A stretch of DNA of 13,773 bases from Pseudomonas sp. (GTDB lineage: Bacteria; Pseudomonadota; Gammaproteobacteria; Pseudomonadales; Pseudomonadaceae), in contig JAPLSD010000082.1 in NCBI GenBank assembly GCA_026398835.1, forward strand, positions 1-13,773, in the 5' to 3' direction. Under the pieces are notes generated by a model, which made no database searches, was not told the origin of the DNA, and worked only from the letters and a program-made list of their open reading frames with translations. Positions within the stretch are counted from its first letter, which is position 1. Every line of letters begins with the position of its first letter. Shown in pieces: positions 2,825 to 10,988 of this stretch. The position numbers were made by a program, and so were the translations under genes.

Positions 2825-3727
2825 ATGACCAGTAGCCCGGAACACGCTCGCCTGTTGCGTCTGGCGACACGCGCCTCGCTGGCGGTGGCGAGCATTCTGA
2901 TCGTAGCCAAGGCCATCGCCTGGTGGTTGAGTGGCTCGGTCAGTCTGCTGGCCGGTCTCACCGACTCCCTGCTCGACGGCGCCGCCTCGTTTCTCAACCT
3001 GCTGGCGGTGCATTACGCGCTACGCCCGGCGGACGATGACCATCGTTATGGGCACGGCAAAGCCGAATCGCTATCGGGCATTGCCCAGGCGCTGTTTATC
3101 GCGGTGAGTGCGGTGTTGATTGCGGTGCAAGCGCTCGAGCGTCTGAAAAACCCGGAACCGCTGGGGGCTCCGTGGGTGGGTATCGGCGTGATGCTCTTGT
3201 CACTGGCGCTGACGGTCGCGCTATTAATGGTGCAACATCGGGTGATCCGCGAAACCGGCTCGACTGCAATTCGCGCTGACTCGCTGCATTACCGCTCCGA
3301 TCTGCTGCTCAACGCCGGCATCCTGGTGGCGCTGGTGCTGGCCAGTTTTGGCTGGCAGCAACTGGATGCCTGGTTTGGTCTGGCGATCGCGGTGTACATC
3401 CTCTGGAGCGCCGTGCAAATCGCGCGGGAAAGCGTTGCGATATTGATGGATGAAGAACTGCCGCCGGACGTCAGCCAGCACATGCTCGAGCTGGCCTGCA
3501 GCGTACCCGGCGTACTCGGCGCCCATGACCTGCGCACACGGATCTCCGGCAGACACTGGTTCGTACAATTGCATTTGGAGTTACCGGGTGAGCTGACGTT
3601 ATCCGTCGCTCACGGCATCAGTGATCGTGCCGCCGAGGCGATCAACGCCGTTTACCCACGGGCCGAGGTGCTGGTGCACGCCGACCCGCAAGAAGTAGTG
3701 ACCGCCGAGAAGGTTTCTATTCAGTAG
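2825..3727 (+). CDS. fieF: Cation diffusion facilitator, FieF/YiiP type
   Basis: Encodes a 300-residue inner-membrane divalent metal/proton antiporter of the CDF family, which exports Zn2+ or Fe2+. Residues matching the metal sites of E. coli YiiP all occur with a constant +2 offset: site A D47, D51, H155, D159, and site B D70, H73, H77 in the DDDHRYGHGKAESL segment. About six hydrophobic helices cover residues 12-200, followed by a cytoplasmic C-terminal domain (about 205-300) with histidines and an HADP motif near the end, as in the YiiP dimer domain. A GAAGGA ribosome site precedes the ATG. Its stop overlaps tail to tail by 7 bp with the stop of the repeat protein on the other strand. No metal-responsive operator was recognised. 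The exact metal preference cannot be read from sequence. Confidence 0.94.
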   Translation: MTSSPEHARLLRLATRASLAVASILIVAKAIAWWLSGSVSLLAGLTDSLLDGAASFLNLLAVHYALRPADDDHRYGHGKAESLSGIAQALFIAVSAVLIAVQALERLKNPEPLGAPWVGIGVMLLSLALTVALLMVQHRVIRETGSTAIRADSLHYRSDLLLNAGILVALVLASFGWQQLDAWFGLAIAVYILWSAVQIARESVAILMDEELPPDVSQHMLELACSVPGVLGAHDLRTRISGRHWFVQLHLELPGELTLSVAHGISDRAAEAINAVYPRAEVLVHADPQEVVTAEKVSIQ

Positions 3728-5049
3728 GCCACCTGATAACCGCGATTGCTCAGGCAGTCGCCCTGCGCTTGACGGTAGGCCTGCACTATCGCAGGCGCCG
3801 GTTGATAGGTGACGGCTGCCGGATCGAAGCCGCTTTGCTCGACTGCCCAGCGATAACAGTCATAGCGATCCTGATTGACCTGCTCAGGTGTTTGCCCATT
3901 GGCCGGGTAAGCGATCACGTCATAACCGTTGCTGACCGGTTGTGGGCTGGCAACCGGTGGATCGACAACCACATACTCCTGGGTGCTCTCTTCGTACATG
4001 TAATAAGCGCCGGCCGCGAGAAAGAGCAGTGCGCCGCCGATCCAGACTTCCTGCGCGTAATCGGGCAGGTAACCCACGCGGATGCCACGAGGCGGCCTGA
4101 CCACCACATACCGCGGGCCTTGTGGGCGATACCAGTAACCGCTGGAGAAGAAGTAATCCTGACCGCGATACGGCACACGGTAATTGCGATCCGGGAACCG
4201 ATCGATCACATAACCCGGCCGGTATTGAGGGCCTGGGCCCCAGCCGTTGCCATGCCCCTCCGGACGACCCGGCCAGCGATGATCGTCATTGCGGCGACCG
4301 TCATCACCCTGACGCGAACCGGCGCCACCGGCCTGCCAGTGTTGATCGTGGTCGTTACGCCGAGGCACGTCCTGATAGTAGCCACGCTGTGGCTCCTGGG
4401 TCTGGCGGACGGTATCCGGCCGACTTTGAATCGGCAGGTTGTTGCTTGGTTGCTGCTGCACCGGTCGGTTGTTGCTCGGTTGCTGCTGCACCGGCAGGTT
4501 GTTGCTCGGTTGCTGCTGCACCGGCCGGTTGTTGCTCGGTTGCTGCTGCACCGGCAGGTTGTTGCTCGGTTGCTGCTGCACCGGCCGGTTGTTGCTCGGT
4601 TGCTGCTGCATCGGCAGGTTGTTGCTCGGTTGCTGCTGCACCGGCCGGTTGTTGCTCGGTTGCTGCTGCATCGGCAGGTTGTTGCTCGGTTGCTGCTGCA
4701 CCGGCCGGCCCTGCTCATTGGGATCATGCTGCGGACGGTTTTGCCACTGGCCGCCCTGATTCTGGCCGTTGTGTTCGAACTGTCGGCTGTTCTCGCCGCG
4801 AATAATCTCGTTCTGCGGGCGAGGCTGATTATTTTGCGGACGTTGTTGATTGTTCTCTGGACGTGGCTGATTGTTCTCCGGACGCTGTTGATTATTTCCC
4901 GAGCGCCCTTCGGAACCATGGTCACGCTGTCCCCCGCCATTTTGACCATGAGGATGCTGCTGATCATCCCCTTCCCCAGCCAGCAATTGCGCGCTGACAC
5001 TCATGCACAGCAAACCAACACCTGCCAAACGCCAGATGCGCGACTTCAT
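3721..5049 (-). CDS. Exported Q/N/P-rich repeat protein (DUF6515-like C-terminus)
   Basis: Encodes 442 residues. I start it at the ATG at 5049 because AGGA lies about 6 bases upstream; a GTG at 5061 in the same frame would swallow that site. The N-terminus is a signal peptide (MKSRIWRLAGVGLLCMSVSA, likely cleaved around residues 22-27). Next is a low-complexity region: seven-residue units of the NNQ-RP-E/Q type (about residues 45-75), then nine QQQPSNN units (about 115-206). An arginine/glycine/histidine-rich linker follows. The C-terminal part has an aromatic section with FPDRNYRVPYRGQDYFFSSGYWYRP, one hydrophobic segment (EVWIGGALLFLAAGAYYM) and a final cysteine pair (DRYDCYRW and GDCLSNRGY). 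The ordered C-terminus resembles the DUF6515 family of exported proteins. Function is unknown; an envelope location with a flexible extended arm is inferred. Confidence 0.85.
   Translation of the reverse strand: MKSRIWRLAGVGLLCMSVSAQLLAGEGDDQQHPHGQNGGGQRDHGSEGRSGNNQQRPENNQPRPENNQQRPQNNQPRPQNEIIRGENSRQFEHNGQNQGGQWQNRPQHDPNEQGRPVQQQPSNNLPMQQQPSNNRPVQQQPSNNLPMQQQPSNNRPVQQQPSNNLPVQQQPSNNRPVQQQPSNNLPVQQQPSNNRPVQQQPSNNLPIQSRPDTVRQTQEPQRGYYQDVPRRNDHDQHWQAGGAGSRQGDDGRRNDDHRWPGRPEGHGNGWGPGPQYRPGYVIDRFPDRNYRVPYRGQDYFFSSGYWYRPQGPRYVVVRPPRGIRVGYLPDYAQEVWIGGALLFLAAGAYYMYEESTQEYVVVDPPVASPQPVSNGYDVIAYPANGQTPEQVNQDRYDCYRWAVEQSGFDPAAVTYQPAPAIVQAYRQAQGDCLSNRGYQVAY
4438..4707 (-). repeat. Nine tandem 30-bp units (60-bp higher-order period) inside a coding gene
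   Basis: Nine in-frame 30-bp units start every 30 bases from 4438 to 4678 and encode QQQPSNN followed alternately by L-P and R-P tripeptides, so the true period is 60 bp. The 60-base blocks are almost identical, differing at only a few positions (for example the leftmost unit reads CTTGG where the others read CTCGG). This near identity points to recent expansion or homogenisation. Confidence 0.95.
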
Positions 5050-5231
5050 GCTATTCCTCACTGCGGTTCAGGGCCTATCCATAAGACTGGAAAAGCGTAG
5101 GACGGTTCTGCGACAGCTTATCAGTCACGAGACTTATTTGATCGATTCGACGCTCTGCAGTGTGAGGCGACCAGCGGACCTGTCTGCACCCTGAATGCTG
5201 CTCATGAAATAACCGTTAACAACTTCTCACC

Positions 5232-5258: not shown

Positions 5259-7315
5259 CTAACTTCCATACCCTATGCGCAGGTGCCCCATGAGCGACCA
5301 GCAAGAATTCCCGGAAGATCCCAACGACTACGCCGATCCAGAAAACGCCGAAAACCACACCGCGAGCACTGGTCTGGCCCTTCCTGGGCAGAATCTGCCG
5401 GACAAGGTCTACATCATTCCGATTCACAATCGGCCGTTCTTCCCGGCGCAAGTGTTACCGGTCATCGTCAACGAAGAGCCCTGGGCCGAAACCCTGGAGT
5501 TGGTCAGCAAATCCGATCATCACTCCCTGGCGCTGTTCTACATGGACACGCCGCAAGAAGACCCTCGACATTTCGACACCTCGAGCCTGCCGCTCTACGG
5601 CACACTGGTGAAGGTCCACCACGCCAGCCGCGAAGGCGGCAAACTGCAATTTGTCGCCCAGGGCCTGACCCGCGTGCGCATTCGCACCTGGCTCAAGCAC
5701 CATCGCCCGCCGTATCTGGTGGAAGTCGAATACCCGCACCAGCCAAGCGATCCGACCGACGAGGTCAAGGCTTACGGCATGGCGCTGATCAACGCGATCA
5801 AGGAATTGCTGCCGCTCAACCCGCTGTACAGCGAAGAGCTGAAGAATTACCTCAACCGCTTCAGCCCCAACGACCCGTCGCCTCTTACCGACTTCGCCGC
5901 CGCCCTCACTTCGGCGACAGGCAGCGAGCTGCAAGAAGTGCTCGATTGCGTGCCGATGCTCAAGCGCATGGAAAAAGTTCTGCCAATGCTGCGCAAGGAA
6001 GTTGAAGTCGCGCGGTTGCAGAAAGAAATCTCCGCCGAAGTGAACCGCAAGATCGGCGAGCATCAGCGTGAATTCTTCCTCAAGGAGCAGCTCAAGGTTA
6101 TCCAGCAGGAACTGGGTCTTACAAAGGACGACCGCAGCGCCGACATCGAACAGTTCGAGCAGCGCCTGGTGGGCAAAGTCCTGCCGCCTCAGGCGCAAAA
6201 GCGCGTCGAAGAGGAAATGAACAAGCTGTCGATCCTTGAAACCGGCTCGCCGGAATACGCGGTGACCCGCAATTACCTGGAGTGGGCAACAGCGGTACCG
6301 TGGGGTGTGTATGGCGAGGACAATCTCGACCTCAAACACGCGCGCAAAGTGCTCGATCAACACCACGCCGGGCTTGGTGACATCAAGACCCGGATTCTCG
6401 AATTCCTCGCAGTGGGTGCCTATAAAGGCGAGATCAGCGGTTCCATCGTGCTGCTGGTCGGTCCGCCGGGTGTGGGCAAGACCAGCGTCGGCAGGTCCAT
6501 CGCCGAATCCCTCGGGCGGCCGTTCTATCGCTTCAGCGTCGGCGGCATGCGTGATGAAGCGGAGATCAAGGGCCACCGCCGGACCTACATCGGCGCCCAA
6601 CCGGGCAAGCTGGTGCAGGCCCTTAAAGACGTCGAAGTGATGAACCCGGTGATCATGCTCGACGAGATTGACAAAATGGGCCAGAGCTACCAGGGCGATC
6701 CGGCCTCGGCGCTGCTGGAAACCCTTGATCCGGAACAGAACGTCGAATTCCTCGACCATTACCTGGACTTGCGTCTGGACCTGTCGAAAGTGCTGTTCGT
6801 CTGCACCGCCAATACCCTGGATTCAATCCCCAGTCCGCTGCTGGACCGGATGGAAGTGATTCGTCTGTCCGGTTATATCACTGAAGAAAAAATAGCCATC
6901 GCCAAGCGTCACTTGTGGCCCAAACAGCTGGAAAAGGCCGGTGTTTCCAAAGGCAGCCTGTCCATCAGCGACGGCGCTCTGCGCGCGGTGATCGACGGTT
7001 ATGCCCGCGAGGCCGGAGTGCGGCAACTGGAAAAGCAACTGGGCAAACTGGTGCGCAAATCAGTGATGAAGCTGATCGACGAGCCGAACGCGGTGATCAA
7101 GATCGGCAACAAGGACCTGGAAGCCTCCCTTGGTATGCCGGTGTTCCGCAATGAACAAGTGCTGTCCGGCACCGGAGTAATCACCGGGCTGGCCTGGACC
7201 AGCATGGGCGGCGCCACCCTGCCGATCGAAGCAACGCGGATTCACACGCTCAATCGCGGCTTTAAACTCACCGGACAATTGGGTGACGTGATGAAGGAAT
7301 CCGCCGAAATCGCCT

Positions 7316-7331
7316 ACAGCTATACAGCTAT
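7316..7331 (+). repeat. 8-bp tandem duplication that breaks lon
   Basis: ACAGCTAT at 7316-7323 is repeated immediately at 7324-7331. One copy gives the expected reading AYSY-VSSHLKQF; two copies shift the frame and bring a stop at 7345-7347. It could be slipped replication or the footprint of a transposon with an 8-bp target duplication that was excised. Confidence 0.9.
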
Positions 7332-7628
7332 GTCAGCTCTCATCTGAAACAATTCGGTGGCGATCCTAAGTTCTTCGACGAAGCCTTCGTTCATCTGCAT
7401 GTACCTGAAGGCGCGACACCAAAAGACGGCCCGAGCGCCGGGGTGACCATGGCCAGTGCGTTGCTGTCGCTGGCGCGCAACCAGCCGCCGAAAAAAGGCG
7501 TGGCCATGACTGGCGAACTGACCCTGACCGGCCATGTGCTGCCCATTGGCGGTGTGCGCGAGAAAGTCATCGCGGCCCGGCGGCAGAAGATCTACGAATT
7601 GATCCTGCCGGAACCTAATCGCGGCAAC

Positions 7629-7715
7629 TTCGAGGAACTGCCGGATTACCTTAAGGAAGGGATTACCGTGCACTTCGCCAAGCGCTTTGCGGATGTGGCG
7701 AAGGTGTTGTTCTAA
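7629..7715 (+). repeat. lon 3'-end repeat, copy 1 (attached to lon)
   Basis: The last 28 codons plus stop of lon (FEELPDYLKEGITVHF to KVLF, TAA). A diverged second copy with the same coding content lies at 9026-9112. Confidence 0.9.
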
Positions 7716-7722
7716 CCCACAA

Positions 7723-7761
7723 AAAATGCGCGCTGTTCTGTTCAAACAAACGGCGCGTTTT
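7723..7761 (+). terminator. Possible lon terminator hairpin
   Basis: AAAATGCGC at 7723-7731 pairs with GCGCGTTTT at 7753-7761 (nine pairs, one G-T), starting 8 bases after the lon stop. The loop is long (21 bases) and the U tract short. The T tract is also where the IS5-type element inserted. Its A and T arms could let it work in both directions. Confidence 0.45.
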
Positions 7762-7763
7762 AG

Positions 7764-8325
7764 GGAAACTCCGATCAACTTGCTGCAATCGCGCGGTAGA
7801 CCGCGTTTTCCTCGCCATGCAGCAGTTCGGCAACCTGGGTGACATCGGCTACATTCGCCGCCGTGCCGTGAACGTGATGAACCAGCCCCGACTCAACATC
7901 AGCGCCGATATGCGCCTTCATCCCAAAGAAATACTGGTTACCTTTCTTGGTCTGGTGCATCTCAGGATCACGTTTTCCGTCCTCGTTTTTAGTCGAACTG
8001 GCGCATGGGCGTGATTTCATACAGCGCTTCCTCCATGGCCGGATCGCTCAGGGAGAACCAGTTCTGCAACAGGTGAATACGCAGCATGGTTTCCGGCGGA
8101 TACGGTTTGCGGCCACCGCCAGCCTTCGGATAATACGGCTCAATCAACGCCAACAAACCGTTCCAGGGCACGACCTGATCCATCTCGGCGAGGGACCGTT
8201 CGCGGCGTGTTTGCTTGCGCTTGCCGGCGTATTCGAAGTCGGAAAAGCTCATCTGGCTCATGGAGCGCTCGGGTCAGGTGGTGAGGCCGTATTTCAGCAT
8301 ACTTGAGGACTTGTTCGGAGTTTCC
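7764..8325 (-). mobile_element. 562-bp internally deleted IS5-family element
   Basis: Both ends are intact: the left end begins GGAAACTCCGATCAACTTG (7764-7782) and the right end, read inwards from 8325, begins GGAAACTCCGAACAAGTCC. The first 11 bases are identical, with further matches after. Both are flanked by TTAG (7760-7763 and 8326-8329), the YTAR-type 4-bp target duplication of the IS5 group. A complete element of this group is about 1.2 kb, so about half is missing, in two places. Without transposase activity it could only move if a full relative supplies the enzyme. Confidence 0.88.
7775..8261 (-). pseudogene. IS5-family transposase remnant, two internal deletions
   Basis: The first about 87 residues are a normal IS5-group N-terminus (MSQMSFSDFEYAGKRK through [18 protein letters not shown], 8261 down to about 7995). 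The sequence then jumps, out of frame, to the middle of the protein ([20 protein letters not shown], about 7995 down to 7800), and stops after HGEENAVY close to the left terminal repeat. Compared with the family as I remember it, the VDAT segment with the first catalytic Asp, the DAGYTG segment with the second, and the C-terminal Glu are all missing, so it cannot be active. A short TTCG microhomology could account for the first junction. Confidence 0.88.
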
Positions 8326-8410
8326 TTAGATACAGTGCTCCCTCAAACCTCTCAAGTCCTCTATAAACGGAAGGCATCCGCGAGTTAGTTATAGCAATCC
8401 ATTCTAAAGA

Positions 8411-8428
8411 ACTGTCAAAGTTGACAGT
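8411..8428. promoter_or_regulatory. Perfect 8+2+8 palindrome overlapping a consensus -35 box
   Basis: ACTGTCAA-AG-TTGACAGT is a perfect inverted repeat 66 bases before the start of the orphan gene. Its right arm contains TTGACA (8421-8426), a full sigma-70 -35 box. No convincing -10 box is found 16-18 bases downstream (TCCATC lies there). A repressor operator is possible; which protein would bind is unknown. The surrounding 8330-8494 has no other feature I can support apart from the ribosome site. Confidence 0.4.
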
Positions 8429-8494
8429 ATCAAATCACTGACATCCATCAATACACTTCAAACTCTTATTAACCAGTTTTGAAGGATAAAAATC

Positions 8495-8974
8495 ATGAAT
8501 AATAACGGTGTATTAAGTGGTCTAGCTGAAGTCAATCGCACCAATCGTGCCCCCATCCGGTGCGACAATGCTAATTACAATCATACGACCGGCGAGTTCA
8601 TTTTCATTAACAACCGAGGTGAAAAATACAGCGAAACAAAGCTAACCCTCTCATTCCCGCTGGGCATCAAAACGGGATCCTATGTAATCGGAGCTATCGG
8701 CAGCCCCATCAAGTCCATAACTTATAGTGAAAACGCAGTTTCTGCAGACATCGTAGAAATACACACATACACCGCGACGGACAGCACGGCGAGCATTACT
8801 GTCGGCGATCAGGACGACAACACAAAATACTACGGGTTCTTTGGCCTTAATCTCAAAATGAAACGAGAGGGTTCCTCTGAGGAATTAACCCTCCAAGGAA
8901 CAGTTACGCTTTTTCACGCAACGGATCCAAGTCAGATCCCTGGCCGGGAGTTCACTTCGGCACCGAAATATTAG
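8495..8974 (+). CDS. Orphan 159-residue protein of unknown function
   Basis: I do not recognise this protein. It starts with ATG 8495 behind GAAGGA (8481-8486), a good ribosome site. It has no signal peptide or membrane helix and one cysteine. The middle and C-terminal parts alternate short polar and hydrophobic stretches (KLTLSFPLGI, GSYVIGAIGS, ADIVEIHTYT, STASITVGDQ, YYGFFGLNLKMKR, ELTLQGTVTLFH), which suggests an all-beta fold, possibly a sandwich or jelly roll. Codon use is clearly AT-richer than the neighbours (24 G or C in the 60 bases 8581-8640), a sign of foreign origin. It sits alone between the IS remnant and the second lon tail, so it is the only intact gene of the inserted segment. 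A small cytoplasmic effector, toxin or carbohydrate-binding protein are guesses only. Confidence 0.75.
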   Translation: MNNNGVLSGLAEVNRTNRAPIRCDNANYNHTTGEFIFINNRGEKYSETKLTLSFPLGIKTGSYVIGAIGSPIKSITYSENAVSADIVEIHTYTATDSTASITVGDQDDNTKYYGFFGLNLKMKREGSSEELTLQGTVTLFHATDPSQIPGREFTSAPKY

Positions 8975-8984
8975 AAGTTGGGGC

Positions 8985-9023
8985 GATGATCATTCCCACG
9001 CCCGGCCGGAACCCACCGTGGGA
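8985..9023. repeat. Degenerate Pseudomonas intergenic palindrome, possible terminator
   Basis: The stretch GATGATCATTCCCACGC resembles the common fluorescens-group intergenic repeat that continues with TCTGCGTGGGAAT. Here the arms TCCCACG (8994-9000) and CGTGGGA (9017-9023) still pair around a 16-base loop, but the loop sequence is unusual. It lies just after the orphan gene, where it could end its transcript, and directly abuts the second lon tail. Confidence 0.5.
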
Positions 9024-9025
9024 GT

Positions 9026-9112
9026 TTCGAAGAGTTACCGGATTACCTGAAGGAAGGGATTACCGTGCACTTTGCCAAGCGCTTTGCGGATGTGGCGAAG
9101 GTGTTGTTCTGA
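9026..9112 (+). pseudogene. Detached second copy of the lon 3' end
   Basis: Codes in frame for the same last 28 residues as lon (FEELPDYLKEGITVHF to KVLF) followed by TGA, but without any upstream lon sequence. Against 7629-7715, I count about seven base differences in 87, all silent, including the stop codon (TAA against TGA). It leads straight into the icp upstream region, so this is probably the ancestral end of lon, now cut off by the inserted segment. It has no start and is not expected to be expressed as protein. Confidence 0.88.
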
Positions 9113-9208
9113 TAGAGCGATCACAGCCCACCCGCCCCTCTCGTCACACTTTGTCTCATCTTCGGTTATGCTCGCCGTTCGTCGTGTATGACCGGAGCCT
9201 TCTGACCC

Positions 9209-9601
9209 ATGTCCCCCACCCGCCTGCTTCTCCCCCTCAGCCTCGCCCTGCTCGCCGCCTGCGCCAGCCAACCCAGGCAGAATGTCACTGTGAGTAAACA
9301 GAGCGACTGCCCGATGCAGTTGAAGACCGGGCAGAACCTGATCCTGACGCTGCCAAGCAACCCGACCACGGGTTATCGCTGGGCGATTCAGGATTCGGCC
9401 GGGGGCGTGTTGCGTAGGCTCAGCCCTGAGGTTTACAGCAACCCGGAAGACGCCGGACTGGTGGGCAGTGCCGGCCAATCGACCTGGCGGTTTCAGACCT
9501 TCGCAGCCGGTAAAGGGCGCTTGCGTCTGACGTATTCACAGCCATGGGCGCCGGAAGTGCCGGCGGTAGAAGCTTTCGACTGTGCGATTTCGGTCAACTG
9601 A
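9209..9601 (+). CDS. icp: Chagasin-type cysteine protease inhibitor lipoprotein (I42)
   Basis: Encodes 130 residues of the inhibitor family I42, which blocks papain-like cysteine proteases with three loops. The signal sequence [18 protein letters not shown] has a lipobox LAAC with Cys18, so the protein should be an envelope lipoprotein. Loop motifs are present: NPTTGYRW (the first), a glycine-rich [10 protein letters not shown] (the second), and QPW where the family usually has RPW (the third). The P. aeruginosa counterpart, PA0778, also follows the Lon-like gene PA0779. The ribosome site (GGAG, 9193-9196) is a little far from the ATG. A TATGCT box at 9167-9172 may be its -10. The stop at 9599-9601 is one base before the yhhN start, suggesting translational coupling. 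Confidence 0.9.
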
Positions 9602-9602
9602 T

Positions 9603-10988
9603 ATGGGTTGGCTGATTCTCGCGCTGATGGGCGCGGTGACCTTTCTCTACGGGCTGAGCGTTCATGCCGAGCTGCTGTGCCTGTTGGTCAAGCCGTTGCC
9701 GGTTCTGGCGTTGCTTGGCTGGTTGCACGATGCGCCACCCAGCGACTATCGGCGCTGGATCAGCCTGGGTCTGCTGTTTTCCCTGCTCGGTGATGTGCTG
9801 CTGGCGTGGCCGGGGGATTTGTTCGTGTTTGGTCTTGGGGCGTTTTTGATCGCGCACCTGGCCTATCTGAAAGCGTATGTGAGTGATTGCCGTCAGCTGG
9901 CGCTGTTGCCGCTGTTACTGGCGATCGGTGTCGGCGCGGTGTTGCTGGGAATCCTGATCTCCCATGGCCTTGGCCCGTTGCTGATTCCAGTGATTGTTTA
10001 CGGCCTGGCCATCAGCGCCATGCTCTGGCGTGCGTTGGCCCGGCTGGGCAGCGATGTGCCCAAACGTTCGGCTTTGTCGGCGGCAAGCGGTGCCGTCGCG
10101 TTTGTATTTTCCGACAGCGTGATTGGCATCAGTCGCTTTGTGGTGGCGTTTGAGGCCGCGCCTTACCTGATAATCCTCAGTTACTGGCTGGGGCAATGGG
10201 GGATTGCAGCGTCGGCGTTTACGCAGAAACCGCGCCGAACCGCCGTGAGCAAAGAACCCGATCGCCTTTTCGCCCAGCCCCTGCCTCAGGTGCCGGACTT
10301 CGCCTTCAATGAGGACGTGGTGCGGGTGTTCCCGGACATGATCAAGCGCTCAGTGCCGGGCTATCCGACCATTGTCGAGAACCTGGGTGTACTCGCGGCG
10401 CAGTTCGCCCAACGGGGCAGCGTGCTCTACGACCTGGGCTCTTCCCTCGGTGCCGTGACTCAGGCCTTGCGCCGCCACGTGCGCACCGACGGTTGCCGGG
10501 TGATCGCGGTGGATAACTCGGCGGCGATGGTCGAGCGTTGCCGCGAGTACCTCAACGGTCAGAACTCGATGTTCCAGGAGTTGTTGCCGGTAGAAGTCAT
10601 CGAGGGCGATATCCTCGCGCTGCAGTTCCAACCGGCCTCGGTGGTGGCGCTGAACTTCACCCTGCAATTCATCGCCCCGGACCAGCGCCTGACGCTGCTG
10701 AGCCGCATTCGCCAGTCCCTGTTGCCGGGCGGCGCGCTGATTCTCTCGGAGAAGTTGCGCTTCGTTGACGCTGAGGAGCACGCGCTGCTCACCGACCTGC
10801 ACATCGCCTTCAAACGCGCCAACGGCTATAGCGAACTGGAAATTGCCCAGAAGCGCAGCGCCATCGAAAACGTAATGAAACCCGACAGCCTCGAAGAACA
10901 CCGCGAACGCCTACTGGCGGCCGGGTTCTCGAAAGTCGTGCCGTGGTTCCAGTGTCTTAACTTTGCCTCGTTGATTGCCTTGCCATGA
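9603..10988 (+). CDS. yhhN: YhhN (lysoplasmalogenase-like) membrane protein reading in frame into CmoA
   Basis: From ATG 9603 one open frame of 461 codons runs without a stop to 10988. Residues 1 to about 214 are a YhhN/TMEM86 family membrane protein with about eight hydrophobic helices (from [18 protein letters not shown] to [19 protein letters not shown]); relatives hydrolyse the vinyl ether bond of lysoplasmalogens, though the bacterial role is uncertain. After a basic linker (QKPRRTA) comes complete CmoA. YhhN proteins normally end about here. So either a membrane-anchored fusion is made, or cmoA is started separately at GTG 10245 (listed separately). An earlier in-frame start at 9582 overlaps icp and is less likely, since ATG 9603 fits the family N-terminus. 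It is one base after icp and overlaps cmoB by four. Confidence 0.85.
10245..10988 (+). CDS. cmoA: Carboxy-S-adenosyl-L-methionine synthase CmoA (in frame with yhhN)
   Basis: CmoA converts S-adenosylmethionine plus prephenate into carboxy-SAM, the donor for the cmo5U34 wobble modification of tRNA. Starting at GTG 10245 the protein is 247 residues, the same length as E. coli CmoA, and begins [23 protein letters not shown] without the first residue change, as pseudomonad CmoA does with Met at position 1. SAM-binding motif [11 protein letters not shown] lies around residues 62-72 with [11 protein letters not shown] after it, and NFTLQFI further on. The C-terminus [21 protein letters not shown] is complete. 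No strong ribosome site precedes the GTG, so coupling to yhhN translation, or fusion to it, is likely. The stop overlaps the cmoB start (ATGA). Confidence 0.9.

Follow-up and report, generated by a model that had tools for sequence, protein, structure and literature searches.

Between asrA and icp in Pseudomonas: a diverged copy of the asrA-like lon 3′ tail and small AT-rich genes of one superfamily

The window, that is, the whole stretch of DNA that was analysed (13,773 nt of contig JAPLSD010000082.1 from the Pseudomonas sp. assembly GCA_026398835.1), carries a gene for a Lon-type protease and, downstream of it, icp, with an insert and a second copy of the lon 3′ end lying between both genes. 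The features assigned were the following:

5290–7715, + strand: second Lon protease gene (AsrA-like), its frame broken in this assembly (Pfam LON_substr_bdg, AAA, Lon_lid and Lon_C)
7629–7715, + strand: first lon tail with stop TAA, the presumed donor end (repeat search and codon comparison)
7716–7765, + strand: terminator-like hairpin behind the first tail (folding energy of −17.9 kcal/mol, z −3.3, matched by 1 of 200 shuffles)
7797–8328, − strand: broken IS5-family element (transposase matches), without the last third of the transposase and ~180 bp inside
8412–8427, no strand assigned: palindrome CTGTCAAAGTTGACAG, a putative operator, 67 bp upstream of the start of the 159-aa ORF
8495–8974, + strand: 159-aa cargo ORF of the asrA–icp superfamily (ORF call, homology searches and predicted structure)
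8975–9002, + strand: 28-nt spacer from the cargo stop to the lon remnant, with a REP-like half labelled by eye (sequence inspection)
9003–9112, + strand: second, displaced lon tail with stop TGA, the presumed resident end (repeat search, lon-end profile and codon comparison)
9209–9601, + strand: icp, inhibitor of cysteine peptidases (PF09394, 5e-24)

As the first-pass annotation had described, the last 28 codons of lon and its stop were present twice, at 7629–7715 and 9026–9112, with a spacing of 1397 bp, and the copies differed by 7 substitutions in 87 nt, all seven of them silent and TAA against TGA among them. A repeat alignment paired 7620–7713 with 9017–9110 (89% identity over 94 nt), and a profile of the lon ends of relatives found the second copy with an E-value of 5e-32, its homology reaching back, in weaker form and across a 1-nt gap ahead of the 28 codons, to 9003. 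Moreover, the second copy was confirmed to lead into icp, the PF09394 match coming just downstream of it. The label lon stood only in part: the gene encodes a Lon-type protease, but it is the second, AsrA-like Lon and not the main lon, as it has the Lon domains, has icp as its neighbour and shares the genome with another Lon homologue (40% identical, on contig C273). Its reading frame is not intact, showing an 8-bp tandem duplication at 7316–7331 that was absent from the five relatives shown and, since the assembly is a fragmented bin of 881 contigs with 74% completeness, this frameshift may be either a real pseudogene or an assembly error. RpoH induction has been described for both PA0779/asrA (8.1-fold) and PA0778/icp (8.6-fold) of P. 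aeruginosa (PMC9866376), where a Lon-type protease adjoins icp as in the window; unlike that pair, the window has a broken frame and cargo separating both genes.

Regarding the insert, the hairpin at 7716–7765 was not called by a simple terminator scan, and a sigma-70 scan of 7600–9250 yielded no promoter on the + strand. An integrase gene had been reported as missing, in agreement with the scan of the three insert ORFs (two IS5 pieces and one cargo ORF), none of which was an integrase. The IS5 element was rejected as the carrier, being broken in the window and having a transposase end that was unmatched in the 80 named loci described below (best 80 of 215), and neither an intact element nor flanking IS copies tied to the remnant were found. 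At the junction (8985–9028), the REP-like half can base-pair with the start of the lon remnant, where a C-to-G difference from lon (by eye) makes the stem perfect, perhaps as a templated mutation; the hairpin at 8985–9028 was ordinary against shuffles (z −1.4).

The icp search of named genomes gave 215 confirmed loci, the best 80 of which were used. All of these 80 had a Lon C-terminus upstream of icp on the same strand, and the asrA–icp gap measured 118–316 bp in 62 and was longer in 18 of them, the short gap, which the first-pass annotation had suggested looking for, being the majority state. Among the longer gaps of these best 80 of 215 loci, 16 held one to three small AT-rich genes of a single superfamily (gap sizes of 670–2335 bp), and the two without such cargo were L106 (331 bp) and the repeat-rich L102 (855 bp). 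The closest relative available for comparison had a best flank identity of 87%, and the short-gap loci come from other species. A further 40 regions from additional genomes were picked chiefly because they had a long gap, a cargo hit or two tail matches, with a few short-gap regions added, and form a non-random set; both sets combined yielded 40 distinct gaps longer than 330 bp, window included, on which the remnant and cargo analyses were carried out. The first-pass annotation had also proposed that other strains might show different cargo, with an integrase, between two lon tails. Different cargo in that position does occur, but the gaps examined hold one small-gene superfamily and not varied integrase-bearing cargo (the integrase scan was systematic for the insert ORFs of the window). 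Overall, single AT-rich genes of one superfamily seem to have landed in the asrA–icp gap repeatedly. A literature search of open-licence papers (below the level of full texts) for a lon/asrA insertion site or the palindrome recognised no description of the asrA–icp locus. As side observations, the gaps of L128 (G018) and L144 (G025) measured 8.5 and 3.6 kb and held ORFs unlike the cargo superfamily, and those of L126 and L139 held ORFs resembling IS110-type transposases (by eye).

A total of 69 ORFs were called in the 40 gaps, of which 40 were kept and 29 dropped (21 of L128, L144, L102, L126, L139 and L145, two Ig-like, two from the window and four that were short and overlapped remnants). 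Of those kept, 39 were linked at phmmer E < 1e-3 by single linkage in this small set, including the 159-aa ORF of the window, whose identity to its two nearest aligned members was 24 and 26%. The mean GC of the cargo was 0.46, compared to 0.59 for lon. Across 398 genus genomes, homologues of the window ORF were found in 5 other genomes and no donor carrying this cargo was detected, the best other match having 35% identity. A 36-member cargo profile matched 62 of 249 genus genomes, that of the window among them; the 23 top-scoring matches were all within ~2 kb of icp or of a lon-tail match, weaker ones were often located elsewhere in the genome, and some members of the superfamily appeared downstream of icp (G104, G158 and L051). 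The AlphaFold model of the cargo protein was all-beta (pLDDT 84, pTM 0.79), a Foldseek search with it returned no significant match, and the family libraries searched gave no above-cut-off match for the superfamily proteins. The L058/L127 cargo pair was 97.4% identical, compared to 88% for lon and 93% for icp between those species, which suggests that this gene may have been transferred between them; this was the one pair among the 26 listed in which the cargo exceeded both flanks in similarity. The small AT-rich proteins are thereby delimited as a superfamily whose genes have a common upstream palindrome.

This palindrome, in its exact form CTGT-N8-ACAG, was found within 170 bp upstream of 23 of 42 cargo ORFs (the 40 kept plus the two Ig-like), 18 of the 23 sitting 55–75 bp before the start codon, and 33 of the 42 had it within the same distance when up to one mismatch was allowed. 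By Markov resampling (200 rounds), means of 0.095 exact and 2.1 one-mismatch cases were expected, with maxima of 1 and 7. Sharing of the palindrome by the cargo genes suggests that they may be under common regulation; its spacing is reminiscent of an SOS box. Furthermore, the longer form CTGTCA-N4-TGACAG had 3–23 copies per genome in 24 Pseudomonas genomes, while its reversed control pattern had none in 23 of them and one in the other. Among the ORFs close to a sample of these sites were some for Ig-like, SET-like and Tc-type proteins (labelled by eye), and the palindrome is therefore not limited to the asrA–icp cargo. At L182–L201 and other loci, the longer form lay near varied accessory genes, a possible regulon.

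Decayed fragments of the lon 3′ end behind cargo genes were found at six other loci besides the window. When the lon-3′ profile was run against the 40 gaps, remnants with E < 1e-6 appeared in the window, L129, L130 (two), L093, L120 and L079, with weaker matches in L042 (E 0.02) and L114 (E 0.31), compared to a best match of E 0.25 in the reverse-strand control of the 40 gaps. L042 also retains an internal stretch of lon (160 bp, 87%, E 4e-51) and, therefore, its displaced piece would once have been at least ~570 bp long. Lon-like sequence resumes 2–43 nt past the cargo stop in nine cases (weak L114 included). The remnants reach the lon stop or nearly so, and their starts in lon differ (profile positions 95–173, and ~570 bp before the stop in L042), a spread to which later erosion could have added. 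Thus, the right joint appears non-homologous and variably placed in lon, and its position varies between loci instead of marking a constant attachment site. Serial stacking was apparent at L093 and L042, with a remnant between two cargo genes, and at L130, with a remnant behind each of two. Stranded lon tails would provide a readable record of insertion order. The remnant of L120 is preceded by an Ig-like ORF, a cargo from outside the superfamily. In the lon-tail search, which scored two candidate places per genome, 353 of 398 genus genomes gave a match, and two matches came from 8 of them, the window's genome among these; of the seven others, G109, G126, G274 and G320 were looked at and G137, G167 and G249 left out. 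On the other hand, five two-cargo loci had no remnant (L134, L136, L137, L080 and L123), and within the DIQQRR-type cargo group L042 and L079 have different lon pieces past the stop and L049 and L125 have none. In the remnant-free alleles, a hairpin (by eye) often lies within a few tens of bases past the cargo stop, from which it may be guessed that DNA breaks there.

The substitutions between the copies bear on their origin. Seven random changes in a dead copy would all be silent with P = 1.4e-4 in the window, and at L129 all three changes between the copies were silent (P = 0.024). Given that 7 of 7 changes are silent, the two tails look, as far as their codons tell, like two formerly functional lon ends and not like a fresh duplication; a plain duplication of the lon end was rejected for this reason, and the earlier view that the diverged copies are unlike a simple recent duplication is borne out. 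Moreover, among the best 80 of 215 loci, the lon stop was TAA in 8 of 16 cargo loci vs. 5 of 64 others (Fisher 3e-4), and a terminator-like hairpin followed lon in 10 of 16 cargo vs. 1 of 64 other loci (5e-8), by a rule that overlooks hairpins visible by eye, e.g. in L093. Copy 1 of the window has both of these cargo-allele traits, TAA and the hairpin, and copy 2 has TGA, which is also the lon stop in 7 of the 16 cargo alleles of that set. Caution on distant origins is due, as the two copies are identical at 78 of 84 nt and, in the best 80 of 215 loci, tails closer to copy 1 than copy 2 is were found in only 3 of 80 species (best 82, L072), and tails closer to copy 2 than copy 1 is also in only 3 of 80 (best 79). 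A REP-like sequence (loose pattern) was present in 56 of the 64 non-cargo gaps of the same set and not after copy 2.

From these observations we infer which tail was donor and which resident, a homologous left joint, an illegitimate right joint and the order of events. The reading that we favour as probable is that a segment made of a lon end plus cargo entered by homologous recombination in lon on the left and by a non-homologous joint in the resident tail on the right, displacing the old tail. The incoming segment would come from another strain and bring a lon 3′ end, complete with stop codon and terminator, along with the palindromic operator and the cargo gene. It would pair and recombine by homology within lon at its left end, and at its right end, just past the cargo stop, it would be attached within the resident lon tail at a point lacking long homology. 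Lon would thereby retain a complete end, that of the donor, and the last ~110 bp of the resident would be stranded behind the cargo as a non-functional direct repeat ahead of icp; repeated events would stack cargo, the newest adjoining lon. Lon is whole at its end, and the left crossover was not located by comparison with relatives of at most 87% flank identity. Counted against this reading are the closeness of the two copies, the TGA stop of 7 of the 16 cargo alleles, the missing REP-like sequence after copy 2, the remnant-free two-cargo loci, the fact that only one of the 26 cargo pairs listed beats both flanks, and the best other cargo match of 35%. The suggestion of homologous recombination with the lon end of another strain is nevertheless the best-fitting of the options first put forward.

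It is less probable, though with a real chance of being right, that cargo already set between two lon tails moves between strains by ordinary homologous recombination, either as linear DNA that crosses over in lon at both ends or as a circle that is excised and enters through a single crossover, the right joint being old and inherited with the cargo. Lon homology does flank the unit on both sides, and L114 and L130 (cargo 88.6% identical) are similar between the cargo stop and the lon piece (by eye; the L114 piece is weak, E 0.31), but the DIQQRR-type members described above differ past their stop. Duplication of the lon end in place, with later insertion and divergence in a single lineage, would explain why the copies are nearly as close as any sampled pair among the best 80 of 215 loci, yet the changes are all silent although one copy would be dead, and short-gap relatives prevail, which makes it improbable. 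Slightly more improbable is that a recombinase encoded elsewhere integrates the cargo site-specifically at the 3′ end of lon: the recurrent target and the replaced gene end would fit, whereas the remnant start varies from locus to locus and no integrase was among the insert ORFs scanned. Lowest of all is the chance of a chimeric assembly of two strains, for which the 881 contigs, the 74% completeness and the frameshifted lon would speak; the single-contig genomes G274 (L129) and G320 (L130) show the same arrangement, and a misjoin would still require a natural cargo-to-lon-tail junction.

Genomic islands that integrate at gene 3′ ends replace the gene end and leave a flanking direct repeat, and both the replaced 3′ end and the repeat are seen in the window. 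Unlike in such islands, the insert ORFs scanned include no integrase, the units are of ~0.7 kb, the joint is variable and the repeats are diverged. The earlier proposal of an island-like integration bringing a replacement tail thus keeps the replacement tail and loses the site-specific island: an integrase island was rejected, as none of the three insert ORFs is an integrase and the right joint is not at a constant place in lon. The core of the proposal holds, the structure being real and recurrent, with a mechanism that would differ from that of a classical island.

A sequential displacement model has been proposed for the T6SS effector–immunity modules of Vibrio cholerae (PMC5361080). Those arrays resemble asrA–icp in having an upstream homologous anchor and a proposed illegitimate downstream joint, and in that older pieces and 3′ ends are shifted back and stack into arrays. 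They differ in that the anchor here is a stress protease gene and not an effector locus, and in that the cargo here belongs to an unrelated superfamily of small proteins, has a palindrome of its own and showed no toxin–immunity pairing. Homology-facilitated illegitimate recombination, with one homologous and one non-homologous end, as we suppose for asrA–icp, has been shown in Acinetobacter, Streptococcus and P. stutzeri (as cited in PMC5361080) and tested in E. coli conjugation (PMC3240628); those events are laboratory ones, and those here are natural, recurrent and at a single locus. The locus thus points to serial displacement through one-sided homology behind a housekeeping gene too, a process put forward for toxin–immunity loci. 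A wider reading, possible though on balance doubtful, is that the 3′ end of a core stress protease serves as an integrase-free docking port, in which units flanked by lon tails would need nothing but homology to lon in order to move, rebuild a complete protease end each time, accrete as arrays and keep a diverse, commonly regulated gene family circulating among Pseudomonas species.

Further observations concern the surroundings of the locus. About ten 30-nt tandem repeats lie at 4367–4768 of the window, inside an ORF at 3721–5061 (− strand), and encode PSNNLPVQQQ-like repeats. At 9609–10988, a single ORF fuses a membrane protein (YhhN-like by eye) with CmoA (TIGR00740), two parts that are ~190–220 bp apart on the DNA in L072 and L040; in L051 a cargo-family match lies between them, and this junction may therefore be a second cargo spot. 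Finally, in G375 and G204 (L147–L150) ~4 Mb separated the best lon-tail match from icp and the two were on opposite strands, which would fit an inversion with a breakpoint between asrA and icp.
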